From a virus: a stretch of 32,719 nucleotides of DNA. Positions within the stretch are counted from its first letter, which is position 1; each line of letters begins with the position of its first letter. Made by a program: the position numbers and the translations under genes. The stretch is from positions 1 through 32,719 of IMG/VR virus record IMGVR_UViG_3300033145_001249. One strand, written 5' to 3'. Of this stretch, positions 2,712 to 31,962 are shown piece after piece. Under the pieces are notes generated by a model. The model saw nothing but the letters and a program-made list of their open reading frames with translations, was not told where the DNA came from and did not search any database.

Positions 2712-3167
2712 TTAAACACTTTCTCCCTTAACAAAATCAAAAGTAACTCTATATTCTGCTGAATCATTGCCTGTGTAACCTGCAGCAACAGCGTTATCGT
2801 TAGAAATTTTTTTAATAGTAAGAGTTTCAATATAACCAGATAGACTTTCATCTTCATAGACCATTGTAATTTCTCCACCATTTATTCCCCCACCTTTTAC
2901 GATTGACTTTAAATCTTCTTTAACTTGGTAAGCCGACTTTGCGTCAGTTTTAGTTATCACGCTTTCTATATGATAAGTTTGCGTTATTCTAAGCAAATCT
3001 ATTAATATTGTTTCTTTTGGACCTCCTGATTGATTAGAAGAACCAGTTCCACCCTTACCTGCAATCTTTTTAAGTGTATTAATCATATTTTCTGCAATTC
3101 CATCTAAAAGTGCAAGAGTCACACTATAACCACCTTTTGACACTGTTATGTTATCGTTGACTGCAAT
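2712..3167 (-). CDS. Tail protein after the tape measure; apparent AUU start
   Basis: About 151 residues. No ATG exists at the 5' end: the frame opens at a TGA and the first plausible initiator is ATT at 3167 followed by GCA, seven bases after a GAGG. An internal GTG at 3143 is the only conventional start and would remove eight residues (AVNDNITV) that read as natural protein. The product has a helical N-terminus, a Gly/Ser-rich linker near residues 38-50 and a beta-rich C-terminal half (GEITMVYEDESLSGYIETL). Position between tape measure and surface protein matches a distal tail or baseplate-like protein; I do not recognise the family with certainty. Stop and next start are contiguous (TAAATG). 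Two other virion genes in the window have the same AUU/AUC-GCA start pattern. Confidence 0.75.
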   Translation of the reverse strand: MAVNDNITVSKGGYSVTLALLDGIAENMINTLKKIAGKGGTGSSNQSGGPKETILIDLLRITQTYHIESVITKTDAKSAYQVKEDLKSIVKGGGINGGEITMVYEDESLSGYIETLTIKKISNDNAVAAGYTGNDSAEYRVTFDFVKGESV

Positions 3168-3168
3168 T

Positions 3169-4440
3169 TTATGTCCTCACCGATTGATTTATTAATGATG
3201 TTATTTGGTCTGTATTCTTACGAAGCATTACTTCAAAATCGTCTTTATTTGAAACAGTAACATTATAAGTTGGACTTACTACTACATTTGAACTCAAAAC
3301 ACCCCTCTGTCGTTCCATCTCACCAAGAAAACCAGCACGACCAGATATTTCTTCTTTACCATAAAGCGATTCAATAGTCTTACTAAGTTTCCCAGAAGTT
3401 TGTAATTCTGCCAAACGATTATAAAATCCTTGAGAATAATCTTCCATTAATGTTGGAAATTGTGGCATCTTAGCCTTAGTAAATATTGAAATAATAGATT
3501 CTCTTATCCATTCTCCAATTGTATACCAGAAATCAATATACTTTCCAGCCATATTTACTATATCTGCGAAAGCCTTACCAGTTCCTTTTGGGTCTTGGAC
3601 AAATTCTATAGCTGTCAAAATAGAAAATGTAACAACACCACCTTTAAGTTTTGCACTAAGTCCTCCTTTAGTAGCAAGAGCTACGAAAGCTGAAGCACCA
3701 AGTTTCTTTTCCCATTCAAAATCATCAGCTTCTTCAAGAAAAATATCAGATATAGTGAAAACTGCTGCACCTGTCCATCCTATACCTCTTGCAAGTTTAC
3801 TGTCAAACAATTTAGCCAATTTTCCACTTACAGCATCAATACCTTTTATAACAGACCCCCCACCGATTCCTTTCAAAATATTCATAATAGATGAAGCACC
3901 AAGTGCTAATTGTCCTGTTGTCATAAGAACACCACCAAGTCCTTGTAATGCGTAAGAAACATAACCTATAGCTCTTTGTGCTTCTTCTGGAAGACTTGTT
4001 AATGCGTCAAAAAGTGGTAAAACACCATAGTCAAGTAAATCGAGTGTTGCTGGTAACATAACTATCCCCATCATATCGCTAAGAAGTTCATTAACCCCCA
4101 ACCATTCTCTCGAAGTAGCAGTTAAATTAGCCATTGTTCTATTAAGTGCCATTCCTGCAAACATTACTCCTAAATAATTCATTTCAAATCTTTGAAGGAC
4201 TGACGAACTTCTTTCCATAAGACTAGTATATTCTTTAACTTGTTTTCCAGTATGATTCACTATGAATCCCATCTTATCAAATTTAAGTCCAGCAGCACCC
4301 ATAACACGGTTTACTCCTGATTGTGTTGTATTAAGTTTTTTTGTCCATTCGTCATAAAATTTTGCTAATCTTTTAACTTTATTAGGGTCTTTAATTTGAT
4401 TTTCAAAAACAATTTTTACTCTTTTTGTTACATCTGCCAT
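3169..4440 (-). CDS. Tail tape measure protein
   Basis: A 423-residue protein with a charged helical N-terminal part (residues 1-85) and long hydrophobic helices around residues 85-200 and 235-280, the usual make-up of a tape measure protein, which sets tail length and helps DNA pass the membrane. It follows two small overlapping genes in the place of the tape-measure chaperones and precedes tail-tip genes. It is short for the family; by the usual rule of about 0.15 nm per residue the tail would be roughly 60 nm. Its ATG overlaps the preceding stop by one base (TAATG). Assignment rests on order and composition, not on a recognised motif. Confidence 0.8.
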   Translation of the reverse strand: MADVTKRVKIVFENQIKDPNKVKRLAKFYDEWTKKLNTTQSGVNRVMGAAGLKFDKMGFIVNHTGKQVKEYTSLMERSSSVLQRFEMNYLGVMFAGMALNRTMANLTATSREWLGVNELLSDMMGIVMLPATLDLLDYGVLPLFDALTSLPEEAQRAIGYVSYALQGLGGVLMTTGQLALGASSIMNILKGIGGGSVIKGIDAVSGKLAKLFDSKLARGIGWTGAAVFTISDIFLEEADDFEWEKKLGASAFVALATKGGLSAKLKGGVVTFSILTAIEFVQDPKGTGKAFADIVNMAGKYIDFWYTIGEWIRESIISIFTKAKMPQFPTLMEDYSQGFYNRLAELQTSGKLSKTIESLYGKEEISGRAGFLGEMERQRGVLSSNVVVSPTYNVTVSNKDDFEVMLRKNTDQITSLINQSVRT

Positions 4441-4640
4441 TATTTTTTACTCCTTTTTATGTTCATTTCTTCCAACTTTTCAAACAATTTATCCAATACT
4501 TCAGAATCAAGATTAAGAAATTCGTCATAAGGTATCCAACCAAAATTTAACATAAGATACACCCATGTATCATAATGGTCAAATTCTTTATTCTTACCAA
4601 ATATTTGATTAGTTATTTCATTTATCTTCTGTTGAGACAT
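4440..4640 (-). CDS. Small protein before tape measure (second tape-measure chaperone, gpT-like)
   Basis: 66 residues from ATG 4640 (MSQQKINEITNQ). A TTG further up (4682) would add 14 basic residues lying wholly inside the previous gene, so I prefer the ATG, which has GAGAGGG about ten bases upstream. The segment YDTWVYLMLNFGWIPYDEFL followed by a charged helix resembles the short second assembly chaperone of siphoviruses. It overlaps the end of the 4618-5049 gene by 23 bases in another frame, the usual layout of the lambda G/GT pair. Reaching this frame from the first gene needs a +1 or -2 shift, not lambda's -1, so separate coupled initiation is the simpler reading. Confidence 0.7.
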   Translation of the reverse strand: MSQQKINEITNQIFGKNKEFDHYDTWVYLMLNFGWIPYDEFLNLDSEVLDKLFEKLEEMNIKRSKK

Positions 4641-5049
4641 TTTTCTTAACCCTCTCTTCTTGAATTTTCTTAATAGTTTCAATATGTTTAACGTTCTTAG
4701 GTTGTGGCATTAATTTACCTAATACTTCATGCAATTCTGTAGGATGTTCAGAAATAAACAACTCTAAATCGTCCTCATCTGCTTCAGGCATTGACCTTAA
4801 TAAAATCCCTTTAAACAATTCAATCATTCCAAGACTTACTTCTTCTACTAACTTATTATAAGTTTCTTTATCTTCCGAATCTTTTAATTTGTTAACTTTG
4901 TTAAGTTTTTTTGAAATATCTGTAACTTTAATTTGTTGAACTACATTAAGTTTTTTAAGATAAATAACTTCCTCATTACCGTCTTCTCCTTTTAAAACAA
5001 ATGGAACTGGTTTAGAAATGTGTCTTTTTAGTATATCTAACTCACTCAT
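4618..5049 (-). CDS. Tape-measure assembly chaperone (gpG-like)
   Basis: 143 residues. The N-terminal beta part (HISKPVPFVLKGEDGNEEVIY) followed by an alpha-helical region with acidic patches (SMPEADEDDLELFISEHPTE) is typical of tail assembly chaperones encoded just before the tape measure, which bind it while the tail tube polymerises. It starts at ATG 5049, overlapping the previous TGA by four bases (ATGA), and overlaps the smaller 4440-4640 gene at its 3' end. Function is inferred from order and composition; no catalytic motif is present or expected. Confidence 0.72.
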   Translation of the reverse strand: MSELDILKRHISKPVPFVLKGEDGNEEVIYLKKLNVVQQIKVTDISKKLNKVNKLKDSEDKETYNKLVEEVSLGMIELFKGILLRSMPEADEDDLELFISEHPTELHEVLGKLMPQPKNVKHIETIKKIQEERVKKNVSTEDK

Positions 5050-5375
5050 TTTTTGACCTCCTTTCCTTTTTTAATTATTTTACCTGATAACATTCTAATC
5101 TCTCCAGTATCTTCTTCATTAGTAGGTTCTTCTACTTTATTTACTTTACTAATGATGTAATCAAGTTTATTATTTATATTTTCAAAAAATACAGTTTTCA
5201 TCCCTTTATATTCTATTGCTTGGTCGAGAATATTCTTCAAAAAAAGTCCATAATCTCCTGCAAAATTCTCGTTAGCTATTTGTATGAAAAGTTCTTTAGT
5301 CTTTTTAGGAACACGACTTATTGACAATCTTCTTTCTTTTTCAAAAAGCAATACATCATTTAATTTGTCATCCAT
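5046..5375 (-). CDS. Ribbon-helix-helix-like small protein in the tail cassette
   Basis: 109 residues. Residues 16-55 (RLSISRVPKKTKELFIQIAN, then a GDYGLFLKNILDQ segment) read like the strand-helix-helix of RHH DNA-binding proteins; a stretch of this style is common in small archaeal proteins. A second helix around residues 58-80 may be a coiled coil and the C-terminus is lysine-rich. Start ATG 5375 overlaps the methyltransferase stop by eight bases; its end overlaps the chaperone start (ATGA). A possible DNA-binding protein among tail genes is unusual: it could be a regulator or simply a helical structural protein. Moderate confidence in the fold, low in the role. Confidence 0.6.
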   Translation of the reverse strand: MDDKLNDVLLFEKERRLSISRVPKKTKELFIQIANENFAGDYGLFLKNILDQAIEYKGMKTVFFENINNKLDYIISKVNKVEEPTNEEDTGEIRMLSGKIIKKGKEVKK

Positions 5376-5925
5376 TTTTTACTTTTAGTAATTTAATTAG
5401 TCTATTTATGTCATTAGAAATATAATAATATACTCCTTTTCTTATTACAATAAATTTGTCTCTTTCAAAAGGGATTACATCAAGTAGTTCATTGGGACCA
5501 AAATAAAATTTATGGTCTGGGTCGTCAAAGAAAGCACTTGGCGTTGTTACAATCCATTTTTCTGAAATTCTATCTATTTCTTTAAAAAGATTCTTTATTT
5601 GAGTTTTAGTATTAAGATGTTCGATTAATTCAGAACAAACTGTTCGTTTAAATTGTTTATCTTTGTAAGGAAGTTTCTTAGCCAAATCTACTTTATCAAA
5701 TATCCCTCTCCAACCTCTTTTTTTAAGATATTCATGTGCAAGTATAGAATTATCGCAAGCATGAGTTGTATTTAAAATAGAAGGCATAAAAGCTCCACAA
5801 CCTAAATCTATACTTGGTTGTCGGTTTACAAATTTCTTTAATACTTTTATTCTTTCAATAAACATTGAATCTTTAGTAAATGTCTTCATTAATTCATTAT
5901 TTCGTTTAATACAATCTCTACTCAT
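5368..5925 (-). CDS. SAM-dependent class I methyltransferase
   Basis: 185 residues. Motif I is SIDLGCGAFMPS (residues 38-49, DLGCG at 40-44), followed by an acidic position at D80 (VDLAKKLPYKDKQF) and the post-motif CSELIEHL (97-104), an arrangement seen in Methyltransf_11-type enzymes. The substrate cannot be read from sequence; location directly after a glycosyltransferase (four-base overlap) suggests methylation of a sugar or nucleotide-linked glycan on virion or cell-surface glycoproteins. DNA methylation is less likely because no NPPY-type motif is present. Start ATG 5925. Confidence 0.82.
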   Translation of the reverse strand: MSRDCIKRNNELMKTFTKDSMFIERIKVLKKFVNRQPSIDLGCGAFMPSILNTTHACDNSILAHEYLKKRGWRGIFDKVDLAKKLPYKDKQFKRTVCSELIEHLNTKTQIKNLFKEIDRISEKWIVTTPSAFFDDPDHKFYFGPNELLDVIPFERDKFIVIRKGVYYYISNDINRLIKLLKVKNG

Positions 5926-6809
5926 TTTTTCCTCCGATTTACAAGTTCAAAATTTTTAGAATCTTCTGGACCATGCATAACATAAAATCCCATTTGTTTA
6001 GAACTTTCTTTAATTATACTCCAATCAGTATTTTTATGTACAGCTCTAACATCTGAATCACACCAAAACTCAAAATGTTTAGCATTAGCTTCAGCAAAGT
6101 ACCAAAGGTCTTCACCCCAAATGAATGTTGGATGTGTCCTGAACGCACACTTTTCTAACACTTCTCTTTTTATCATAAGACAACCCAATCCAACACCATA
6201 AGTTTTAAATAAATTAGGATTTTTTTCATCTTTAATTATGTGAGGAATTAACAATTTTTCTTCCTTAGTAAGCGTTTTATTTTTAAATTTTTTAGCAAAC
6301 CTCTTGTAAGCGTTTACTTCAGAAAAACTAAAATAATTAAGACCTTTTCCTAGAGTAATCTCACCAGATTTAAGAAGGCAAGGTCGTCTGTTTGGTTTAT
6401 AGAAAACATGAACATAAAATCCTACATGGTCTTTGTCATAATAAAGAAGTTTATGTAATCCATTCTTTGGAATAAAAATATCATCGTCGAGAACCATCAT
6501 GTGACTGTAATCTTGTTTAAGAAAATATTGTCTTATTTCTTCACGAACGTGTGCAAGCATTTGAAGATGGTTAGTCTTTTTAGGATTCCATTCGTGCCTC
6601 CAAGTAATAATCTTCTTTCCTTTTACCTTAAGTTTTTTAAGTTTATTATAATACTTTTTACTTTTAAGAGTGTTGTCAACTATACAAACATCAAAATTAG
6701 GATAAGTAAGTTTTTCTAAATGTGCAATCCATTCATCAATGAGATGGTCATGTCGGTTACTACTAGGACAACAAATTAATACTTGGGGTATACTTTTATT
6801 TAGTTTCAT
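5922..6809 (-). CDS. GT-A fold glycosyltransferase
   Basis: 295 residues. The N-terminus (QVLICCPSSNRHDHLIDEW) is a GT2-like nucleotide-sugar binding start; the metal-binding acidic triad is MVLDDDIF (D108-D110), and the C-terminal acceptor/base region carries FIWGEDLWYF followed by a His-containing AVHKNTD. These indicate transfer of a sugar from a nucleotide donor. It begins at ATG 6809 with GGAG eight bases upstream and overlaps the methyltransferase start. With the second glycosyltransferase at 9327-9953 and several sequon-rich secreted proteins in the window, modification of virion or surface glycoproteins is the likely task; exact sugar and acceptor unknown. Confidence 0.88.
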   Translation of the reverse strand: MKLNKSIPQVLICCPSSNRHDHLIDEWIAHLEKLTYPNFDVCIVDNTLKSKKYYNKLKKLKVKGKKIITWRHEWNPKKTNHLQMLAHVREEIRQYFLKQDYSHMMVLDDDIFIPKNGLHKLLYYDKDHVGFYVHVFYKPNRRPCLLKSGEITLGKGLNYFSFSEVNAYKRFAKKFKNKTLTKEEKLLIPHIIKDEKNPNLFKTYGVGLGCLMIKREVLEKCAFRTHPTFIWGEDLWYFAEANAKHFEFWCDSDVRAVHKNTDWSIIKESSKQMGFYVMHGPEDSKNFELVNRRKK

Positions 6810-6829
6810 TCTTCTTTTCTCCTATTCTT

Positions 6830-6858
6830 AAATTAAAAAAATAAAAAATTTAAATTGT
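6830..6858 (-). terminator. T-tract terminator after the major tail gene
   Basis: Read on the minus strand, the first bases after the major tail protein stop become a run of T tracts (TTTTTTATTTTTTTAA), the usual archaeal terminator type. A similar tract follows the major capsid gene, so both abundant virion proteins have one, which fits partial termination after highly expressed genes. Confidence 0.6.
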
Positions 6859-6874
6859 TTGGTTTATGCCATTA

Positions 6875-7477
6875 CTACCATTTAGTAGAAACAGTATAAC
6901 TTGCGAGCGATGTAAGTGTAGCGGTTGTAGCTCCACCAACAGATTCTATCTTTACATTAGCTGTACCATCTTTATCAAATGCTGGAACTTTATAAGTTAC
7001 TGTAAACTTTAAAATTCCGTCAGTGAAACTTGGTGTAACTTTAGTAAAAAATCCGTCAGCCGCTGCTACTCTAAGTGCATAATTAGTAGGTGCTATGACT
7101 TGAGCTTCAGCGTCTACTGCTGCGTCTGTCCACATAATAGCCATTCTGTACTTTGTTCTTGTTCTATCTGCTAAACAAACTATAGGTTGTGTATTGTCTA
7201 AAGTGTTCATTAAGTCAAAGAAACCAGTACCAGCTGTTGCTGATGCTAAACCAGTAGTTCCTGCTTCAACAGGGTAAGCCTCTAATGTAATTGTTGTTGG
7301 TTCTTGTGGTGTAAACTTTACAAGTCTACCGCCTGCAAGAGTATTTATTACATCAAATCCTTTTTCACCTATATCAATGTCTACTGTTTCAGTAATAGTA
7401 ACGAATGGAACATCAATTCCTGCTGGTGCCGCTATTGCTATTTTTCCTATTTCAGACCATGTATCAGGTTGTGCGAT
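6875..7477 (-). CDS. Major tail (tube) protein; apparent AUC start
   Basis: About 200 residues. The N-terminal half (VTITETVDIDIGEKGFDVI, then GGRLVKFTPQEPTTITLEAY) matches the pattern of siphovirus tail-tube proteins, and the C-terminal half (GILKFTVTYKVPAFDKDG) is a second beta sheet. It is followed by T tracts, as expected for an abundant protein. The frame has no ATG before 7210, far inside the fold. Upstream it is open only to a TAA at 7486-7484; candidates are ATC 7477 (GGAGG nine bases upstream, next codon GCA) or ATA 7483 (GGAGG only three bases upstream). The ATC-GCA choice matches two other AUU-GCA starts in the window. Starting at 7210 would delete nearly half the protein. Confidence 0.82.
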   Translation of the reverse strand: MAQPDTWSEIGKIAIAAPAGIDVPFVTITETVDIDIGEKGFDVINTLAGGRLVKFTPQEPTTITLEAYPVEAGTTGLASATAGTGFFDLMNTLDNTQPIVCLADRTRTKYRMAIMWTDAAVDAEAQVIAPTNYALRVAAADGFFTKVTPSFTDGILKFTVTYKVPAFDKDGTANVKIESVGGATTATLTSLASYTVSTKW

Positions 7478-7479
7478 TT

Positions 7480-7647
7480 TTATTTACCTCCTTTTGATTT
7501 ATTTACCTTTTCTGTCTCTTCGACTTGTTCAATATGAAATCCATCGCCAGGTATTTTGTCTAAGATTTTTGTTTCTTTTGGACCAAATACAAGTGCTCCG
7601 CAGGACACTGTTTGTTCTAAAAGGTTAGTAACTCTATATTTTATCAT
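7480..7647 (-). CDS. 55-residue protein before the major tail gene
   Basis: Starts at ATG 7647 with GGAGG six bases upstream and reads MIKYRVTNLLEQTVSCGALV to a Lys/Gly-rich end (KSKGGK) whose codons form the Shine-Dalgarno sequence of the next gene. The beta-rich pattern with a VFGPKETKIL turn resembles small head-tail or tail accessory proteins, but I do not recognise the family. It overlaps the preceding gene by four bases (ATGA), so it lies in the same coupled tail operon. Confidence 0.7.
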   Translation of the reverse strand: MIKYRVTNLLEQTVSCGALVFGPKETKILDKIPGDGFHIEQVEETEKVNKSKGGK

Positions 7648-7790
7648 TTCTTACCTCCTATTGATTTATATACAATATTTGCTATAGCCCAGAAATCAGA
7701 CTCTGTGTAAACCTTCTTAGTTCTAGGATTGATTTTACCCTTAAATTTAGCCTTAATCGACTGAAAAATAGTATCCAATTTTTGTGGCAT
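7644..7790 (-). CDS. 48-residue basic protein in the tail operon
   Basis: ATG 7790 overlaps the TGA of the gp10-like gene (TGATG) and its own TGA overlaps the next start (ATGA). The product (MPQKLDTIFQSIKAKFKGKI, then a VYTESDFWAIANIVYKSIGG end) is basic with one amphipathic helix. The tight stop-start overlaps on both sides are the main evidence that it is translated. The final Gly-Gly codons supply the GGAGGT ribosome-binding site of the following gene. No family recognised; perhaps a small tail accessory protein. Confidence 0.68.
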   Translation of the reverse strand: MPQKLDTIFQSIKAKFKGKINPRTKKVYTESDFWAIANIVYKSIGGKK

Positions 7791-8245
7791 CACTTATTAC
7801 CTCCAGACGATTTAAGGGCTTTATCAAGATGCTTATTTATTAATTGTGGTAACATATTTAATCCTTGTTCGAGTGCTGGTGCTATAAAGGGTGTGAATTT
7901 TGAAACAAACGCTTTTCCTGAAGGCAATCCGTAAATCTCACCAAACCTAATACCACTTCTTGTAGGAGCATATACACTAATTAAATGTGGTGTGAATCCA
8001 GTTTCTTGGAATACTCCATAAGGACTTGTTACTTCAATTTCAATTTGTTTTTTGTTTAACTTTTGAAGTAAAATACTTTGTGCCAAAGCTCCAGTTATTC
8101 TTGGTGCTCGAAGTTTTGCAGACTTTTGAACGAATTTCATAAATTCATCACCCGACTTTTCAATTTCTTTTTCCATCTTTTTAGAAATTTTAATTAAGAA
8201 ACTATTTAATTCATTAGCTCCAAGCATCTTCATTGTAAATACCAT
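7790..8245 (-). CDS. HK97 gp10-like tail completion / neck protein
   Basis: 151 residues. The central segment LRAPRITGALAQSI (about residues 45-58), the strand EIEVTSPYGVFQETGF, and a late FIAPALEQGL helix are the signature layout of HK97 gp10-like (minor tail/neck) proteins, where Ala-Pro-x-x-Thr-Gly-x-Leu precedes a beta hairpin. Such proteins join the connector to the tail terminator. It lies between the tail-terminator-like gene and the major tail protein, the expected neighbourhood. Starts at ATG 8245 or the in-frame ATG at 8233 (MKMLGANEL); the first overlaps the previous stop by one base. Confidence 0.8.
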   Translation of the reverse strand: MVFTMKMLGANELNSFLIKISKKMEKEIEKSGDEFMKFVQKSAKLRAPRITGALAQSILLQKLNKKQIEIEVTSPYGVFQETGFTPHLISVYAPTRSGIRFGEIYGLPSGKAFVSKFTPFIAPALEQGLNMLPQLINKHLDKALKSSGGNK

Positions 8246-8706
8246 TATGAATAAGTCTTTGTTATTCTAAATCGCCACGAAAAAATCGCACTACGAAGAT
8301 GAACTTTGAACCCTCCACGATTTACACTATCAGCTAAAGTATTATCAAGATTAACAAAATCCATACCAAGACCTCTTAAAGTCTCTCTATATGTCTCTAT
8401 TGCTTCAATTATAGCTTGTCTGAACCTATCAGCTGATTCAGATTTAGTAGAATATACATCAATTGTAAAAGTTCCATTAACTTGTTTTTTTGTCTGTGTA
8501 AAATCTGTCCAATTCATGTCAAGAGGGTTTACTATAACTATTGGATAGGTAGATTTAGAATCAATTTTGTTATCTGGAAAAGAACTTGCATAAGTTTGAA
8601 TAGTTTGAGTAGAATCGTCAGAATTTGTTATAGAAGTTACAGTTTTAGTTCTATTATAAATAAGATTCCAAATATCAGTTTCAATATTCTTTTTATTAAT
8701 TGTCAT
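8245..8706 (-). CDS. Tail terminator-like protein
   Basis: 153 residues. A helix, a beta strand containing TYPIVIVNPLD, and FTIDVYSTKSESADRFRQAI leading into a long helix resemble the alpha-beta fold of tail terminators (lambda gpU type), which cap the finished tail tube and join it to the head. Order supports this: head closure upstream, gp10-like and major tail protein downstream. It starts at ATG 8706 and is the first gene after a clear archaeal promoter, with an untranslated leader of roughly 40 bases. Fold assigned by pattern only. Confidence 0.7.
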   Translation of the reverse strand: MTINKKNIETDIWNLIYNRTKTVTSITNSDDSTQTIQTYASSFPDNKIDSKSTYPIVIVNPLDMNWTDFTQTKKQVNGTFTIDVYSTKSESADRFRQAIIEAIETYRETLRGLGMDFVNLDNTLADSVNRGGFKVHLRSAIFSWRFRITKTYS

Positions 8707-8764
8707 TTTTATTGCTCTGCAATTTAATTATAACCCTCTGGATTATATTAATATAAAACTTAAA

Positions 8765-8803
8765 GAATATATAAACATTTCCATTAAGTTATAATTTACA
8801 CAA
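8765..8803 (-). promoter_or_regulatory. Promoter of the tail operon, with TTGTGTAA motif
   Basis: On the minus strand the TATA box is GTTTATATATTC (8776-8765), preceded by GGAAAT and TTATAACTTAAT. The same extended sequence occurs upstream of the protease gene (18943-18970). A TTACACAA motif (plus strand 8796-8803; TTGTGTAA read on minus) lies about 20 bases upstream of the TATA box, similar to two copies at the other promoter. Expected initiation is about 25 bases downstream, giving a leader of about 40 bases before ATG 8706. Likely a coordinated late promoter. Confidence 0.72.
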
Positions 8804-8815
8804 GATATTATACTT

Positions 8816-8974
8816 TTACTTTTTAATCTTGTTTACTTTTTTTTCGTATGCTTTTTTGATAAATTCTTCAATATATCTTGACCTATTACCTGTAAGAATA
8901 TCTATCATACCTATTACATCGTTTGATAAATATATGTTTATTCTTTTTCCCCACTTTACCTTATTTTTTGCCAT
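8816..8974 (-). CDS. 52-residue ribbon-helix-helix protein
   Basis: Starts at ATG 8974, overlapping the TAA of the head-closure gene by one base (TAATG), and reads a basic N-terminus, the strand KRINIYLSNDVIGMIDIL, a GNRSRYIEEFIKKAYEKK helix and a lysine-rich tail. Strand, short helix, then NRSRYIEEFI is a classic RHH (Arc/CopG-like) pattern. Such proteins bind operators as dimers. It is the last gene before the shared-type promoter at 8765, so it could bind that promoter or the TTGTGTAA motif; this is inference from position. Confidence 0.78.
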   Translation of the reverse strand: MAKNKVKWGKRINIYLSNDVIGMIDILTGNRSRYIEEFIKKAYEKKVNKIKK

Positions 8975-9327
8975 TATACAATTTTTCCATAAACTTCTAT
9001 AACAAATGTAGTGCCTTTTACTGTTTGTTTGTTTACTTTTACCATTTCGTAAGTAGTTGAGTCATAGATTATTTTATTTCCATTAGATAAGTTGGACTGC
9101 GTCCCTTTAAAGAAAAACCTTTTATCAGCTCCTATCATTATACCTTCTTTATCTTTAACTTCTTCAGGACTTAAATCGTTCATTACAGCTTTTACTCCTG
9201 TTTCATCAGAATTAGAATCTGTAGCATCGCCATAATCTGAAAGTGTTTGACTTACAGTCCTAACAGTCACAGTTTCGCCTAAATCATCTATTTCTTTAGT
9301 AATTGGTTTTATACATATCTTTGCCAT
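8974..9327 (-). CDS. Head-closure (stopper)-like protein
   Basis: 117 residues, all-beta in appearance: a paired-strand start (ETVTVRTVSQTLSDYGDATD), the segment MNDLSPEEVKDKEG, and an ending SNGNKIIYDSTTYEMVKVNK followed by a strand. This matches the SPP1 gp16 / HK97-type head-closure fold, in which a barrel closes the portal channel. Position after the adaptor and before the tail terminator fits. ATG 9327 overlaps the stop of the glycosyltransferase by one base, so the glycosyltransferase has been inserted between two connector genes. Confidence 0.7.
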   Translation of the reverse strand: MAKICIKPITKEIDDLGETVTVRTVSQTLSDYGDATDSNSDETGVKAVMNDLSPEEVKDKEGIMIGADKRFFFKGTQSNLSNGNKIIYDSTTYEMVKVNKQTVKGTTFVIEVYGKIV

Positions 9328-9953
9328 TATTCCATATCGTCAACTTTGAAAACATATTCTCCAATATGCCCTAATTTAATTGTAGGGTCTATCCAGACTG
9401 AATATCCCATCTTTTTAGCTCTAAAATCAAAAGCCCAATCTTCACTAATATATTCTGCTTTATTAATCATTGGAATGTTAGGAACTAAATATTTTTCCCT
9501 AACTTTTTCTATTACTTCTCTTTTTACCATTTTAAAACCGTTACCAAGAAAACATACTTCAAAAAGTTCATCAGGAATATTCCATTCATACTTTTTTGGG
9601 AACTTTCCTGTCTGTTCATAAATTCCTTGTAAATCTAATGGTCTATAAACAGGAAGACATGGTTTTTTCTTATAAACATAAAGTCCTCCAACTATGTCCT
9701 TATTAAGGCTAATAAGATAGTCTATTACATCATTATAAGGTCCTAAATATAATATGTCTGCGTCTAGATTGAAAAAGTAATCGCAATCTGTTTGAAGAAA
9801 TCTATCAATTAAAATCTTTCGTGCATGTTCAACACTTGCACCAATTACCTGATTAAAAACTATTTCATGTTTAGATTTAAGGAAAATTGTCTGATTATCT
9901 TTAACTTTTGGACTTATTAAATTAAAAACTGGTAGTGCTACAAACACTTTCAT
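9327..9953 (-). CDS. Second GT-A glycosyltransferase, between connector genes
   Basis: 208 residues. N-terminus KVFVALPVFNLISPK, then HARKILIDRFLQTDCDYFFN leading into the metal-binding LDADIL (D64-D66), and a C-terminal catalytic/acceptor stretch SEDWAFDFRAKKMGYS (from S170) with IKLGHIGEY (His196). This is the usual order for small viral and archaeal GT-A enzymes. Translation is coupled to both neighbours by one-base overlaps, so it is made together with the adaptor and head-closure proteins. It is unrelated at the sequence level, as far as I can see, to the glycosyltransferase at 5922-6809. Likely modifies a glycan on virion or host-surface protein; acceptor unknown. Confidence 0.85.
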   Translation of the reverse strand: MKVFVALPVFNLISPKVKDNQTIFLKSKHEIVFNQVIGASVEHARKILIDRFLQTDCDYFFNLDADILYLGPYNDVIDYLISLNKDIVGGLYVYKKKPCLPVYRPLDLQGIYEQTGKFPKKYEWNIPDELFEVCFLGNGFKMVKREVIEKVREKYLVPNIPMINKAEYISEDWAFDFRAKKMGYSVWIDPTIKLGHIGEYVFKVDDME

Positions 9954-10603
9954 TAGAATGTATCCTCGCTTACTTTAGAATGTATTTCTTCAAGAGAATT
10001 AATCTGATTTACCATATCTAAATATCTTTGATAATAATGACTAAAAGATTGCATATCTTTTGTAATCTTAGTAGAACCGAACGAAACACTTGGAGCACAA
10101 CCAATGTTAAGTTTTGCATAACAATAAGCTGCTGTCAAAAAAATTGAAGCTAAGTTCACTTTTGAATCAACAGAATCTGCTAACTGTCTTACACGGGAAT
10201 AAGCGTATGTAATATAATAAGTGTTGCTTGGACTTGGTGCTGAAGAAAGTGTAATTGAACAAGCATCGTCATCCACAGAACTTACTGTAAGTTCTGTTTC
10301 AGTTCCATCACTCGTTACTTGATAAAAAATTATATCATCTTTAGTAATTTCTCCATCATTATCCATATCTGCTAAGAATTTCCCTTTCCAATTTTTCACA
10401 TAATAAGTAGTATTAGACGAGTCTCTTTTATTTTGCCTAGTGTTATCTATATAATCAATATTTTCTCTTATAACTTGAACATTTATGTCAGAATTAAGTT
10501 GTTTAGTAGCTTTTAAAATTAATGCTGTTACATCGGTGTTACCAACATCGTTAGAATCAATGTTAGTGATTAAGTTCAAGTCTGAATATGTTGCGTATGC
10601 AAT
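9953..10603 (-). CDS. Head-tail adaptor with an inserted calcium-loop domain; apparent AUU start
   Basis: About 216 residues from ATT 10603, next codon GCA, nine bases after GAGG. The first conventional start is TTG 10579, which would remove AYATYSDL, a segment that looks like the normal start of phage adaptor proteins. The core is helical (LILKATKQLNSDINVQ; LASIFLTAAYCYAKLNIG; a C-terminal FSHYYQRYLDMVNQI helix), as in gp6-like adaptors. In the middle (about residues 66-130) sits a beta insertion opening with DMDNDGEITKDD (D79-D90), which fits the 12-residue EF-hand/dockerin calcium loop at all ligand positions. It follows a 52-base gap after a secreted protein gene. Confidence 0.78.
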   Translation of the reverse strand: MAYATYSDLNLITNIDSNDVGNTDVTALILKATKQLNSDINVQVIRENIDYIDNTRQNKRDSSNTTYYVKNWKGKFLADMDNDGEITKDDIIFYQVTSDGTETELTVSSVDDDACSITLSSAPSPSNTYYITYAYSRVRQLADSVDSKVNLASIFLTAAYCYAKLNIGCAPSVSFGSTKITKDMQSFSHYYQRYLDMVNQINSLEEIHSKVSEDTF

Positions 10604-10655
10604 TTTAAATTACCTCTTTATGTTTTAATATTAAACACTTTAAAGTTAATAAACT

Positions 10656-16858: not shown

Positions 16859-17983
16859 TTATGCGTCTGACACGTCAATACTTACTACAGCATCACTATG
16901 AACAGCGACAATTGAATATGCACAAAAAAGTCCAATCCTAATTTGGTCTCGTGATTTATATTCAAACACCTCAACTGAAGGCGATTGTCCCCAAACAAGT
17001 GCGATAGCTTTCTTTGCTTTACAAAGAACACATCTAGTTGTAGCCACAGCAGCTGTTGTATTATCTGGAGCAGTTCCAGAAGCGGCTGTTTGTTCAACGT
17101 TACTAGTCACTACAATCCTTACACCCAAATATTGTCCAATTTCACCGTTTTGTACAACAGTATCTGAACCATATTCAGCAGCATTAACAAATTGTGAATC
17201 CTTTCTAAGAGCTTCCTCTTGAGCAGGACCTATAAATAGAACGAATGGGTCGTCTGGAGTATTTTGCCAACAATTCTTCTCTACAGTTGAATCGTAAGTA
17301 AAAGTACCGTTTTGTCCAGAACCATCAGCTCTATACCAATTTTGTTTAGCTTTAAGGTATCTTGCAGCAGTAGCAACTAAGTCAGTAGTCATTGTATCAC
17401 CTGCAGCTAATGTATCTGCACCGTCAGCGTCTCCACCGTAAAGTCCAATCTTTCCAGCAGTTCCTGATACAGCTAAAGTCATTTTATCATTTGAACCAAA
17501 TGCCAAACCGATTTCTACATCGATTCTGTCACCTATTGCGTATGATAATTCATCTTTAGCCCATTGTGATAGATTAAGAGCATTAGAACGAATATCGTAT
17601 CGTCTTATTGCGTAACCTAATTGAATAGGTAATGGTGTAGCTAACACATTTGCAGTATTATCTAATGTTGTCCATGAAATATCTGCTATTGTATTTGCAT
17701 AAGGACCAGTACCAGCACCAGAACCACCACTCTCACCACCAGAAGTGTTCCAAGTCATCCCAGAGTAACCTTCGTAAAGTGTTCGTCTTGGAATTTCTAA
17801 AGACCTTGTATTAGGCTCTAAAGTATAAGAACTCACAAAATTAGCAAAGAAAAACTGTTTCTTCGCAGCATCCATTACTTCTTGAAGGAACTTAACAGGT
17901 TGATTACCATATATTGTACCAAGGCTTGAACCTCTAACATCACTTGTTTCAGTCGCAGCCAATTCTTGAATAGATTCTTTCAT
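16859..17983 (-). CDS. Major capsid protein (HK97 fold)
   Basis: 374 residues from ATG 17983, one base after the protease/scaffold stop; a GTG at 18034 would add 17 residues translated from the protease end and is unlikely. Features: an N-terminal helix, FANFVSSYTLEPNTRSLEIP (near residue 45), a Gly/Ser-rich loop (SGGESGGSGAGTGP, possible E-loop region), a long central helix with LPIQLGYAIRRYDIRSNALN, and a late domain FVLFIGPAQEEALRKDSQF followed by IGQYLGVRIVVTSNV, typical of the P- and A-domains of HK97-like capsids. Codon use is richer in GCA/GGT than in neighbours, fitting high expression. Followed by strong T tracts. Confidence 0.9.
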   Translation of the reverse strand: MKESIQELAATETSDVRGSSLGTIYGNQPVKFLQEVMDAAKKQFFFANFVSSYTLEPNTRSLEIPRRTLYEGYSGMTWNTSGGESGGSGAGTGPYANTIADISWTTLDNTANVLATPLPIQLGYAIRRYDIRSNALNLSQWAKDELSYAIGDRIDVEIGLAFGSNDKMTLAVSGTAGKIGLYGGDADGADTLAAGDTMTTDLVATAARYLKAKQNWYRADGSGQNGTFTYDSTVEKNCWQNTPDDPFVLFIGPAQEEALRKDSQFVNAAEYGSDTVVQNGEIGQYLGVRIVVTSNVEQTAASGTAPDNTTAAVATTRCVLCKAKKAIALVWGQSPSVEVFEYKSRDQIRIGLFCAYSIVAVHSDAVVSIDVSDA

Positions 17984-19004: not shown

Positions 19005-19436
19005 CTACTTTAATCTTGTTGGGCTTAAAAAAGAAAGGTTTACTTCAGTTTTTTTAGTTTCTAAAGATTCCTTATTTAAACTGTTCACATAATATTGATA
19101 CTCTAAATTTGATATTTTTATATTATCTAAGGAGTTAATAGGTTCTAAGTGGATAACATTTCTTTTTTCAAACTCTTTAACAATTTTATAATGTAAGATA
19201 ATTATTTCGTTAAGTAAAAAATTAAGTTCTGCACCTTTTAATATTCTTTCAAAATAAATATGGGTGAGGTCATGATATTTATTAAGAAGTGTATACTCCA
19301 TATTTTCTACTTCAGCTTTAACATCAAAATCCTTTGGATAAATCCAATCTGGTTCTGTTGGAAACTTCTCAGTTGGTAATTCTTTTTCTCCCTCTTCTAC
19401 AGGATATTCTGTTTCGTTCATTTCTTTTTCAGACAT
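19005..19436 (-). CDS. Acidic protein after the portal gene
   Basis: 143 residues, start ATG 19436 (a second ATG five codons on is possible), overlapping the end of the portal gene by eight bases. Residues 1-35 are very acidic and Pro-rich (EYPVEEGEKELPTEKFPTEP); the remainder is helical (HDLTHIYFERILKGAELNFL; NEIIILHYKIVKEFEKRN). Position between portal and protease is where many phages encode a minor head or capsid-assembly protein, but no family is recognised. Confidence 0.68.
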   Translation of the reverse strand: MSEKEMNETEYPVEEGEKELPTEKFPTEPDWIYPKDFDVKAEVENMEYTLLNKYHDLTHIYFERILKGAELNFLLNEIIILHYKIVKEFEKRNVIHLEPINSLDNIKISNLEYQYYVNSLNKESLETKKTEVNLSFLSPTRLK

Positions 19437-20817
19437 CTTTAGCCTCTTTTTTCATTTTTCTTAGATACATCTGTGTAACAACATCAGTCTTTTTATTAGT
19501 CTCCTGGTCATTATTATCTTTCTTTTGTTCAGATTCATTAAAAGATTTTAATTCAAGTCCTTCTTGTTCAGCTATTAATTCTCTAACCTCATTTGGTTGA
19601 ATTACTCCAAGTTGTACCCATTGAAGAAGTCTATCAGACTTCTCATCCCAATCTTCAGTACCTATCTTGTTCCAGATTATTTTAGGAACTTTTTTATACT
19701 TTCTTAATTTAGCAAGTGGTTTAAGGATGTTTTTCTCAAAAGTTAAAATCATTTTTTTCACTATATCATTAAGTGTAAATTCTAAAAGTTTTTGCATATT
19801 GTTCAACGTTGCCCTATTTGTAGCTTCTCCAGAACCTGTAGCAAAAGCCATTGGTATCCCAAACGATGCGGATTGATTTTCTCTAAGACTTTTAATAGAC
19901 CTATCTACTATATCTGACTGTTTTACTTCAATAGGTTCAATTCGATGATAATAAGGTACTGCAAAATATCTATCATGTTTAAATTTTTTCATTATTTCTA
20001 AAGCACTTTCAAGTCTTTGAGGTGTTGCTGGAGTTTTCTCATTTCCGACATAATCTACTAATGGATAAGTTCCTCTAGCGTATATTGAATTAGTCTGTGC
20101 TTCTTCGATATTTAATTTTCTTACTATAGATTTATAAGCGGGTTCAACAAGTCCATACGAATCAAAACCATTGGCTCCAGTATACAATTTGAAAAGTGCA
20201 ATTCTTTCTCTTAATAAAAAAATCTGTCCTTCGTCTTTGTCAATTAGTTCTTTGTATTCTTCTGGAACTTCATCTCCAAGATTTTTAGTATTTGTATCGT
20301 AAGAGTTTCCAATAGTTTGAACATATCCAATAGACATTTGGTTAGAATCTAATAAAATGTTTCCGTTAGAGTCTCTAGCATAGTCCATTTGTTTGGGGTC
20401 TATTCTAGTAAGGTCTAAGATGTCTGTCATTTCTTCATTGTACACATTTTCAATCCAAGAATATCCAAAAACTTGTTCAGTAAAAAAAAGGTATCCGAAA
20501 AGTTCATCAATTGTATAATCGTCTCCAATATTACCAAGATTGTCAATAAAACTCATAAAATCTTTTTTATCGTTTTCGTCAACATCCCATCTATATCCAG
20601 CAGCCATTATCATTTGATTATTTTTATTAACTGAATTAAATGTTATAGGGTCTGCATAGTAAGCATTTTCAAGTTCTTGTGGTATTACTCTTCTTAAAAT
20701 TTTTTGTGCAATTTTTGAAGTCTTTGACGAAATCGAACTACGTCTCCTCCCTTCACTAACCCCACTTACTAAATTTCTGCTTACTCCAACAAAATCGTCG
20801 GAAAGTGTTTTTATCAT
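19429..20817 (-). CDS. Portal protein
   Basis: 462 residues. The order matches siphovirus portals: an N-terminal arm, the wing (VNKNNQMIMAAGYRWDV; ELFGYLFFTEQVFGYSWIEN), a beta region with LTRIDPKQMDYARDSNGNIL, the clip/stem region (YFAVPYYHRIEPIEVKQSD) and the helical crown after FGIPMAFATGSGEATNRATL, with a late WDEKSDRLLQWVQLGVIQ. These appear in SPP1/HK97-like portals. It lies downstream of the terminase with only a small membrane-protein gene between. Start ATG 20817 overlaps that gene's stop by four bases. The C-terminal 60 residues are charged and probably disordered. Confidence 0.86.
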   Translation of the reverse strand: MIKTLSDDFVGVSRNLVSGVSEGRRRSSISSKTSKIAQKILRRVIPQELENAYYADPITFNSVNKNNQMIMAAGYRWDVDENDKKDFMSFIDNLGNIGDDYTIDELFGYLFFTEQVFGYSWIENVYNEEMTDILDLTRIDPKQMDYARDSNGNILLDSNQMSIGYVQTIGNSYDTNTKNLGDEVPEEYKELIDKDEGQIFLLRERIALFKLYTGANGFDSYGLVEPAYKSIVRKLNIEEAQTNSIYARGTYPLVDYVGNEKTPATPQRLESALEIMKKFKHDRYFAVPYYHRIEPIEVKQSDIVDRSIKSLRENQSASFGIPMAFATGSGEATNRATLNNMQKLLEFTLNDIVKKMILTFEKNILKPLAKLRKYKKVPKIIWNKIGTEDWDEKSDRLLQWVQLGVIQPNEVRELIAEQEGLELKSFNESEQKKDNNDQETNKKTDVVTQMYLRKMKKEAKDV

Positions 20818-21481: not shown

Positions 21482-22933
21482 TCAAGCACTAAGCAATTTT
21501 TCTCCACCACCTATATCTTGTTCTACAGCACCTTTTACTGCAAGAGCTAATGCAATCGCAAGGTCGTCATGTGTTGCCCTACTCGCTATCGTTGGAAGTC
21601 TAGTATTTGGAGTTAATCCTGCTTTAAATCCAATCAATTGAGTCGCCAATTCTAAGATTATTTTTTGTTCTTCATAATGATTCTCATCTTTAGAAAACGG
21701 AAGGACTAATAACTTATTTTCTATAGCAGATTTAAGAGTGCCAAGTAAATGTCCTCTTGCAGTAGAACTAAATGTAACAGCTTCTGCTGACAATCCATAA
21801 CTAATTAAACTATTTACAACTTCTTGTCCAATGTTAGACTTATCTACAAGAAAGTAATAAGGATTATATTGAGATGCAAGTTCTTTAAGTCGTTCGATTC
21901 TGTCATAATTAAGAATCCCCCTATGTTTTTCAATATGTTTTAAGATTATTTTTCCATTAAGACACTTTTCAACTACTGCATAAGAATCATAATCTGAATG
22001 TGGTCCGTCAGAAAGTGCCAAATCGACTCCAATAAATATATAACTATTCTTATCTTCAAGTTTATTTGTAAAATTTCTTTCGTAATCGTAACAATTAGAA
22101 ATATTTTTAACTTTAAAAATTGAACCTTCAATATCTGCCTCAGTATTCATCATATAATTTCTTTCAAAATTAGCATGCCCTTGCCTTTCTCTTATTTCCA
22201 TTAACTTTTTGATTGGAAAACGTTCTTCCCATATAGATTCACCAGTATTATAGTCATTATTTTTGTAATTAATAATTGCAGGATATTTTTTAGATACATA
22301 TTGTGGATTATTGTATAAAATTACCCCCAAATCTCCTGGCTCTATTGGTGTTGTAACTGCTGCAATTTTACCATATTTTGCATCATCTACTCTTGATTCT
22401 ACATCTCTAAACCATATTTGATAATAATCAGATTTATCCATGTAACTACTAACTTCATCACCGAAAATGTAATCTGGATGTTTTCCTCTTATACTCATCG
22501 AGTAAGGAGCATTATCTATTTTAGAATTATTAGAACATATCATTTTATCTTTAGTCCACATTTTTTTATCATTTCCTACAGGTTTAAGATGTTCAGCAAG
22601 AAAATCATTATCTTCGATACGAAACTTAATTTCTTCAATTATAGTAGATGATTGCCCTTTAACTACTTTAGAAATGATAACACTCCATGAACCTGGTTTG
22701 AATATACTAAGCCATATTGGATAAGCAATTCCAAAATAGTAACTTTTTCCGTATCCTGTAGGAGCAAGTATTAAGATTCTTTTATTTTTTCTAAGCATTT
22801 CACACCATTCACGATGAAATGGTTTTACTGTGTATCCTAAAACTCGTTCACAAAAAAAAGCAAAATCAAATATACATCTATTTACGAAATTTGTTTCATC
22901 TTCCCCTTGCAATATTTCTTTTTTAGTTCTCAT
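21482..22933 (-). CDS. terL: Terminase large subunit
   Basis: 483 residues. ATPase domain: Walker A APTGYGKS (57-64), Walker B YIFGDE (155-160), coupling motif TTP (194-196). Nuclease domain: first acidic GVDLALSDG (D304), second VDKSN (D364), and the C-terminal HDDLAIALALA (D456/D457), all three positions of the RNase H-like headful/cos nuclease. It packages DNA into the prohead through the portal. No clear small terminase is seen nearby; the HNH-ligase operon immediately upstream does not supply one. Starts at ATG 22933, seven bases after the PRTase-HAD stop. Confidence 0.95.
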   Translation of the reverse strand: MRTKKEILQGEDETNFVNRCIFDFAFFCERVLGYTVKPFHREWCEMLRKNKRILILAPTGYGKSYYFGIAYPIWLSIFKPGSWSVIISKVVKGQSSTIIEEIKFRIEDNDFLAEHLKPVGNDKKMWTKDKMICSNNSKIDNAPYSMSIRGKHPDYIFGDEVSSYMDKSDYYQIWFRDVESRVDDAKYGKIAAVTTPIEPGDLGVILYNNPQYVSKKYPAIINYKNNDYNTGESIWEERFPIKKLMEIRERQGHANFERNYMMNTEADIEGSIFKVKNISNCYDYERNFTNKLEDKNSYIFIGVDLALSDGPHSDYDSYAVVEKCLNGKIILKHIEKHRGILNYDRIERLKELASQYNPYYFLVDKSNIGQEVVNSLISYGLSAEAVTFSSTARGHLLGTLKSAIENKLLVLPFSKDENHYEEQKIILELATQLIGFKAGLTPNTRLPTIASRATHDDLAIALALAVKGAVEQDIGGGEKLLSA

Positions 22934-30342: not shown

Positions 30343-30482
30343 ATAAATGTTATATTGAGAATGGATATTTTTATGAAGAAAATAGAATAATTTGTGGTAT
30401 TTGCGCAAGCGATATGGGAAAATCAGATAAAAAAGAAGGAGAACTTTCTTACTGCGGATGTGAAGAAAGAGAATATATTTAA
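30339..30482 (+). CDS. 47-residue zinc-knuckle protein
   Basis: From ATG 30339: MNKCYIENGYFYEENRIICG, ICASD, then an acidic linker and YCGCEEREYI. CGIC at residues 19-22 and CGC at 39-41 with C4 can bind zinc. It overlaps the previous stop by four bases and ends one base before the start of the PcfJ-like gene. Its presence shows that the next gene starts at 30484, not earlier. Confidence 0.68.
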   Translation: MNKCYIENGYFYEENRIICGICASDMGKSDKKEGELSYCGCEEREYI

Positions 30483-30483
30483 C

Positions 30484-31962
30484 ATGGAAAAAGAAATATT
30501 AAAATATGCAAATGGAATGAATGCAAATAATAAGGTTTTAGATTGGTTAGAAAATAATGTAACAAAAGATAAACCACAAGGAGAGGTAGAACATATAATA
30601 GATTACATAATTCAAACAAAACAAGATTTTTTTAAAGCAACTTATAATCGTGTAAGTAAAAGGGCAAAAGAGTGGTTAATAAAACTAAACAAGGGAGGGG
30701 TGAATATTAAAGATGTTGAGGGGGTTGATGTTAAAACTATAAAAAAATGGAAAGAAGGTTTTAGATTTGTTAAATTAATATCTGAAAATGCTTATAAAAG
30801 AGAAGGGTTTATGATGGGGCATTGTTCAGCAAGTTATTATGGGAAAGAGGATACACTTTATTCTTTAAGAGATAAAAATAATAAACCACATGCAACACTA
30901 TCAAGTAATTCATTACAAATCAAAGGTCATGGTAATGGAAGTATTCATCCAAAATATATAAAATATAATGTTGAAATGTTAAGAGAATTAGGTCTTGAAG
31001 TAAGAGAAAATGAGATGAAGAATCTTGGTTATATAGATGTTGAAGATTTTAAAAAATATCTTTCTAAAGAAACAATTAAAGATTTATTTAATGGCAAATA
31101 TCATTACCTAAAAAATAAGCTTTTAGACAAAGAAAATGAAGAATTTGCTTGTTTTGAATTATTAGATAAGATACCATTAATTGAATATAATAAAAAGAAT
31201 ATATGTAACATTAATTTTAATCTGGGTAGTTTTAATAATAATGCTATAAAGTTTCTATTTAAAAAGATAAGTTTTTTTAAGAAAAATAAAAAAGATTCTG
31301 CTCAGATTGGAAGTTCAGGAAATTATGCCAAGATTGGAAGTTCAGGAGATTATGCTCAGATTGGAAGTTCAGGATATTCTGCTAAGATTGGAAGTTCAGG
31401 AGATTCTGCCAAGATTGGAAGTTCAGGATATTATGCCAAGATTGGAAGTTCAGGATATTATGCCAAGATTGGAAGTTCAGGAAATTATGCCAAGATTGGA
31501 AGTTCAGGAGATTATGCTCAGATTGGAAGTTCAGGATATTATGCCAAGATTGGAAGTTCAGGAGATTATGCCAAGATTGGAAGTTCAGGAGATTATGCCA
31601 AGATTGGAAGTTCAGGAAATGATGCTCAGATTGGAAGTTCAGGAAATGATGCTCAGATTGGAAGTTCAGGAGATGATGCTCAGATTGGAAGTTCAGGAAA
31701 TTATGCCAAGATTGGAAGTTCAGGATATTCTGCTCAGATTTCATCTAAAGGACAAGATTCAATTATAGCAGGGATTGGAATTAATACGATAATTAAAGCA
31801 AAAAAAGGAAATTGGATAACATTAGCAGAGTATGATAAAAACAACAAACCTTTATTTGTTAAATCTGCTATAATTGATGGTATTAAATTGAAAGAAGATG
31901 TTTTTTATAAACTAAAAAATAAACGATTTGTAATGGTAAAAATGGATAAAGATAAAATATGA
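30484..31962 (+). CDS. PcfJ-like protein with a 16-unit IGSSG repeat
   Basis: 492 residues from ATG 30484; an upstream GTG (30394) lies within the zinc-knuckle gene and is unlikely. Residues 85-170: KWKEGFRFVKLISENAYKRE, MMGHCSASYYGKEDTLYSLR and PHATLSSNSLQIKGHGN, the hallmark Met-x-HC...YSLRD...PHATL...QIKGxxN of PcfJ-like proteins in phages and plasmids. Residues 274-417 are 16 units of nine residues, [KQ]IGSSG[NDY][YSD]A, expected to stack as a beta solenoid; a degenerate unit and a closing beta domain follow. PcfJ-like function is not established. The repeat could be a spacer, a binding surface or a decoy. Coupled to the following gene by ATGA. Confidence 0.85.
   Translation: MEKEILKYANGMNANNKVLDWLENNVTKDKPQGEVEHIIDYIIQTKQDFFKATYNRVSKRAKEWLIKLNKGGVNIKDVEGVDVKTIKKWKEGFRFVKLISENAYKREGFMMGHCSASYYGKEDTLYSLRDKNNKPHATLSSNSLQIKGHGNGSIHPKYIKYNVEMLRELGLEVRENEMKNLGYIDVEDFKKYLSKETIKDLFNGKYHYLKNKLLDKENEEFACFELLDKIPLIEYNKKNICNINFNLGSFNNNAIKFLFKKISFFKKNKKDSAQIGSSGNYAKIGSSGDYAQIGSSGYSAKIGSSGDSAKIGSSGYYAKIGSSGYYAKIGSSGNYAKIGSSGDYAQIGSSGYYAKIGSSGDYAKIGSSGDYAKIGSSGNDAQIGSSGNDAQIGSSGDDAQIGSSGNYAKIGSSGYSAQISSKGQDSIIAGIGINTIIKAKKGNWITLAEYDKNNKPLFVKSAIIDGIKLKEDVFYKLKNKRFVMVKMDKDKI
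31303..31734 (+). repeat. Sixteen tandem 27-bp coding repeats
   Basis: Exact 27-bp spacing with an unchanging core AGATTGGAAGTTCAGGA. Differences are nearly limited to codons 7 and 8 of each unit (AAT/GAT/TAT, then TAT/TCT/GAT) and to the junction, where GCC is followed by AAG and GCT by CAG in all units but one (GCT-AAG near 31381). A 17th unit (from 31735) has lost the core. Confidence 0.95.

Follow-up and report, generated by a model that had tools for sequence, protein, structure and literature searches.

Structural genes and the three startless frames

The window, by which we mean the whole analysed stretch of 32,719 nucleotides, is an IMG/VR virus record with a G+C content of 29%. It derives from a head-tail virus whose terminase, portal, HK97-type major capsid protein (MCP), head closure and neck genes are listed in Table 1. 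Three further genes on the minus strand, named below by their first positions, open without a conventional start codon. Re-reading of the sequence gave TGA GGA CAT AAA ATT GCA at 3167, TAA ATA AAA ATC GCA at 7477 and TAA TTT AAA ATT GCA at 10603, each with a GAGG or GGAGG Shine-Dalgarno (SD) core 7-9 nt upstream, exactly as the first-pass annotation had described them. Its statement that no conventional start is available at the true 5' ends was likewise borne out, since no ATG, GTG or TTG occurs between the upstream stop codon and the conserved N-terminus in any of the three genes. Reading downstream, the first standard codon in the 3167 gene is a GTG, its codon 9; the 7477 gene has none until the ATG at codon 90 of 200, and the 10603 gene has TTG at codon 9 followed by ATG at codon 80. 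No SD sequence at normal spacing was found before these internal candidates. The upstream stop codon ends 1 nt before the ATT at 3167, 2 nt before the ATC at 7477 and 52 nt before the ATT at 10603, and the last gap contains no ATG. Initiation at the ATC and ATT codons would yield the predicted N-terminal peptides AQPDTWSEIGK in the 7477 product and AYATYSDLNLITNIDSNDVGNTDVTALILK in the 10603 product.

The pattern GAGGN{4,8}AAAATYGCA has three matches in the whole window, which are the sites at 3167, 7477 and 10603, and none in 100 dinucleotide shuffles. The common context AAAATYGCA pointed out earlier has only limited meaning: A-rich spacers and GCA second codons are also found at ATG starts, and the corresponding starts in related viruses precede GCC, AGC, ACA, GGA or CCA, so that AAA before and GCA after the start are not diagnostic.

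The AF2 model of the 7477 product (pLDDT 65) has the T5 tail tube as its top PDB fold match (E 4.6e-5), and the protein thus folds like a tail-tube protein. In agreement with the earlier claim about the major tail protein, about half of this fold would be lost with the first internal ATG. The tail-tube protein had no match in INPHARED, and neither homologue alignment gave a convincing match when used as a profile against PDB sequences. The model of the 10603 product (pLDDT 83.7) has an ordered N-terminus and weak structural matches to phage neck proteins, which together with the position of the gene suggest a putative neck or head-tail adaptor protein.

Table 1. Structural genes, SD cores and AUU/AUC/AUA starts in the window and in related loci
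Record	Feature	Position	Strand	Start or remark
Window	Terminase	21482-22933		
Window	Portal	19429-20817		
Window	HK97-type MCP	16859-17983		
Window	Head closure	8974-9327		
Window	Neck	7790-8245		
Window	Putative head-tail adaptor gene	9953..10603	-	ATT 10603-10601, then GCA
Window	SD core GAGG, adaptor gene	10613..10616	-	9 nt 5' of ATT
Window	Tail-tube-like (major tail) protein gene	6875..7477	-	ATC 7477-7475, then GCA
Window	SD core GGAGG, tail-tube gene	7487..7491	-	9 nt 5' of ATC
Window	Conserved gene after putative tape measure gene	2712..3167	-	ATT 3167-3165, then GCA
Window	SD core GAGG, 3167 gene	3175..3178	-	7 nt 5' of ATT
L084	Adaptor	5001		ATA-GCC, leader AGGAGGTAAGTTAAA-ATA-GCC
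L094, L095	Adaptor	5001		ATT-AGC; two loci related to each other
L076	Apparently head closure	1101		ATT-ACA, leader GGAGGTAATTAAA-ATT-ACA
L063		10713		ATC-GGA
L069		11262		ATT-ACA
L068		8226		ATT-CCA
L003		14759		ATT-CCA; window homologue 7790-7650 has ATG

Several other features of the genome were observed by eye or in passing. Two glycosyltransferase-like genes and one methyltransferase-like gene (5922-6809, 9327-9953 and 5368-5925, minus strand) lie among the structural genes, and the surface proteins are rich in NxS/T. The product of 30394-31962 (plus strand) contains a long run in which a unit of the form IGSSG(N/D/Y)YA(K/Q) recurs about 16 times almost unchanged, the rest of the protein being non-repetitive. 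A small hairpin, ATTGCNNNGCAAT, at 8706-8738 (minus strand) stands just 5' of the ATG of gene 8706-8245; L003 has this stem with a different loop.

Another window frame, 11705-10656 (minus strand), is also startless, for a different reason: it needs a -1 shift at the A10 run 11694-11685. Its ATG is in the 0 frame, the run follows a few codons later, and the remainder, which completes a surface-type product with a signal-like N-terminus, is in the -1 frame; slippage, a phase-variable tract and an assembly error are the alternatives here. The small gene 15786-15506 (minus strand), between the MCP and adaptor genes, has an uninterrupted frame only if a -1 shift takes place at the A10 run 15691-15682, and its product would read MSFEKIYQLDKERM...SSKKK followed by a helix-hairpin-helix-like part, KIKGIGDETLSDL. 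Homologues have the same -1 shift at A10 (L089) or at A9 (L007), and in L033 the second part has an in-frame ATG; judged by this comparison, it is a case of conserved -1 slippage at poly-A, either ribosomal or transcriptional.

Start codons in related viruses

Alignment with homologues, which the first-pass annotation had proposed as a check, placed AUG at the position of AUU or AUC. All 17 unfused homologues of the tail-tube gene (26-68% identical, BLAST) carry an ATG that coincides with the aligned start or lies only a few codons from it, and the L001 leader is nearly the same as that of the window (GGAGGTAATTAAAA-ATG versus GGAGGTAAATAAAA-ATC). In the adaptor gene, the aligned codon is ATG in most of the unfused homologues, as in L007 (AAA-ATG-GCA-TAT, versus AAA-ATT-GCA-TAC in the window), while three relatives have ATA or ATT there (L084, L094 and L095, Table 1). 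Both distant homologues of the 3167 gene (L001 and L003) begin with ATG. These ATG codons indicate that the start position is right and that the change affects the third base of the codon; they make a mis-called start at an internal GTG, ATG or TTG unlikely. The weak codon is not kept as non-AUG across homologues in the manner of infC, most of them having ATG.

Relatives were collected by scanning viral collections for capsid, terminase, tail-tube and adaptor homology, which gave 105 related IMG/VR loci (1.34 Mb, some overlapping; identical ORFs were counted once). For each ORF with a homologue-fixed start, we asked whether ATG, GTG or TTG was present and, if none was, which codon stood behind the SD; the ORFs of the family loci were run through the pipeline without one-by-one curation. 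Among approximately 860 homologue-fixed starts, 829 are ATG, 20 are GUG or UUG with an SD and 11 are AUU, AUC or AUA (AUH). The 11 belong to nine viruses, being the three window sites and eight cases in eight other viruses. The original observation of three genes in one genome was thus confirmed and proved too narrow, and the suggested search of related contigs for AUY-GCA starts did yield further AUH starts, although with second codons other than GCA. Six of the 11 (the three window sites, L084, L076 and L063; the strict set) have no standard alternative at all, and in the other five a GTG inside their own SD is a formal alternative start.

Within the family, AUH starts are enriched in the window (3 of ~41 versus 8 of ~819, p 0.013, the denominators being approximate). 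The adaptor gene is the hotspot, with 4 of 24 homologues versus 7 of ~836 other starts (p 1e-4), or 3 of 23 when L094 and L095 are merged to count independent cases (p 0.002). Because the loci were fetched by homology to the four proteins and are not a random sample, such gene-wise rates are preferable to overall ones. All 11 substitutes are ATH, with no CUG and no ACG; if substitutes were drawn at random from the seven non-standard codons one step away from ATG, the chance of obtaining only ATH would be ~0.006 for the strict six and 9e-5 for the eleven.

The same pipeline applied to 12 Firmicute phages (35-45% G+C, 0.46 Mb) gave 284 ATG, 20 GUG or UUG and no AUH in ~304 starts. Against this bacterial control, the AUH share of all starts in the family is in modest excess (Fisher p 0.035), and the ratio of AUH to GUG/UUG is 11:20 compared with 0:20 (p 0.002).

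A plain scan for an SD followed by a given codon, ignoring homology, was too noisy, with AAA, AGA and AAT as common as ATT, and only homology-supported cases were therefore counted. This left aside L067 ~3021 (ATA/ATT), L037 17491 (ATA-GCA) and L069 14529 (ATT-GCG), where no homologue fixes the start. The other non-canonical pipeline matches were rejected after inspection by eye, each being an antisense shadow ORF, a fused gene or a single-vote mapping.

Probable initiation at AUH codons and the alternatives

Predicted duplexes with the archaeal 16S tail are at or below -7.2 kcal/mol at all 11 AUH starts, compared with a median of -6.0 at window ATG starts (p 6e-5 for all 11, 0.002 for the strict six). 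A TATA-like peak lies at -29 to -32 before the ATG of non-SD genes only (101 in 638 genes versus ~21 per neighbouring bin), which, by its spacing, is the archaeal leaderless layout; this TATA spacing was sought at the AUH starts and found at none. By their strong SD and their lack of a leaderless TATA, the AUH codons therefore belong to internal cistrons led by an SD, which would be able to hold the ribosome.

Archaeal hosts are suggested by these TATA boxes, which precede leaderless ATGs by ~30 nt, and by a weak MCP match. The likeness to HK97-type archaeal tailed viruses lies in this distant MCP similarity, which extends over ~100 residues (38%) to an Altiarchaeum virus (BK059162) whose record names an archaeal host. 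No provirus was found in GTDB contigs with the portal and MCP-profile queries. Asn/Thr-rich surface proteins such as those of the window virus are of a kind that we take to be associated with DPANN archaea. No tRNA gene was found in the window, and hence no virus-coded initiator tRNA there. In the close relative L002, a tRNA with anticodon CAU (5711-5781, Rfam 48.7 bits) directly follows an RNA ligase gene, which is also present in the window with no adjoining tRNA; as an initiator this tRNA was rejected, since it apparently lacks the GGG/CCC anticodon stem of initiators.

At the level of sequence comparison, the start position, the SD association, the recurrence and the restriction of the substitution to the third base are established. 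We consider it probable (about 0.8) that AUU and AUC serve as genuine SD-dependent start codons of three internal cistrons in an archaeal tailed virus. The strong SD would set the 30S subunit so that the initiator Met-tRNA faces the AUH codon and matches its first and second positions, the mismatch at the third being tolerated; translation would begin with Met, presumably at a yield below that of AUG. Changes from ATG to ATH have arisen repeatedly and persisted in the virus family, so that its archaeal hosts probably tolerate AUH starts. The first-pass annotation had offered relaxed initiation in the host or a deliberate low-efficiency start. Its reading of AUU and AUC as real starts agrees with the ATG of homologues and with AUH in independent contigs; deliberate low efficiency is unproven, and relaxed host initiation is favoured by the recurrence across the family. 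Counting against AUH initiation, codons other than AUG are reportedly disfavoured by archaeal aIF1 (PMC6237735); given such proofreading, the hosts may be less strict or the SD may compensate, as extended SDs do in Staphylococcus aureus.

It is conceivable, if rather doubtful, that the archaeal hosts of this virus family routinely accept a third-position mismatch, with AUU, AUC and AUA as standing starts, in host genes too, that standard gene callers miss. It is rather unlikely that weak AUH starts have been selected for dosage, limiting low-copy morphogenesis proteins that share a late mRNA with other genes. The tail-tube protein also begins at AUC although it usually ranks with the most abundant proteins of the virion; this speaks against dosage as a general explanation and makes a low-dose signal unlikely for this gene. 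For the adaptor such a signal is possible, that gene being the AUH hotspot, and AUU and AUA starts reduce yield in S. aureus reporters (PMC13009471); against it, most adaptor homologues have ATG, the window codon is unconserved at every depth tested, and L084, L094 and L095 were retrieved with the adaptor itself as query.

It is highly improbable that the genes are reached from the upstream gene by frameshift, readthrough or reinitiation and need no true start codon. The short distances from the upstream stop at 3167 and 7477 and the conserved -1 slippage at A-runs elsewhere in the virus group would suit such coupling, but the 10603 gene lies well beyond its upstream stop, most of the homologues stand as genes of their own with an ATG, the junctions show no slippery heptamer, and reinitiation would still need the AUH codon; frameshifting, weighed at each of the three sites, was rejected. 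Also highly improbable is an error of sequencing or assembly, or a mis-calling of genes that start at internal GTG, ATG or TTG codons, since, even though the record is a metagenome contig, homologues carry ATG at these positions, similar AUH starts occur in independent contigs from other metagenomes, and internal starts would remove conserved N-termini and lack an SD at normal spacing.

Comparison with known systems

Non-AUG initiation, including initiation at AUU, is known in bacteria and eukaryotes. No report of AUU, AUC or AUA starts in archaea or archaeal viruses was found in the literature searched, whose coverage left out most subscription journals. Their recurrent use by such viruses in virion genes is apparently new, AUU initiation itself being known. 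If the reading is true, at least one group of uncultured archaea selects its starts less strictly at codon position 3 than generally described, and standard annotation truncates or loses virion genes of its viruses, here including that of the tail tube. Gene callers could then consider ATT, ATC and ATA where a strong SD and homology agree, and AUH use by the aIF1-based archaeal machinery with help from the SD would be directly testable with defined viral leaders.

The E. coli infC gene has an AUU start under IF3 control. E. coli pcnB, cited in PMC13009471, likewise has an AUU start. Both resemble the present sites in having a near-cognate AUU behind an SD; however, they are bacterial regulatory genes of the cell, controlled by IF3, whereas here structural genes of an archaeal virus are involved, several per genome. 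In S. aureus, cvfC1 starts at AUU and ccpN and infC at AUA, aided by a strong extended SD (PMC13009471). The assistance of an AUH start by a strong SD is common to both systems, but the S. aureus cases are bacterial and their non-AUG codons are kept within the genus, while here the codon varies among relatives and is ATG in most. Finally, AUG, GUG and UUG are the only archaeal start codons named in a review (PMC7531240). Archaeal GUG and UUG starts share with the AUH codons non-AUG initiation by the aIF1/aIF1A/aIF2 machinery, but their mismatch is at codon position 1, and that of the AUH codons described here is at position 3.
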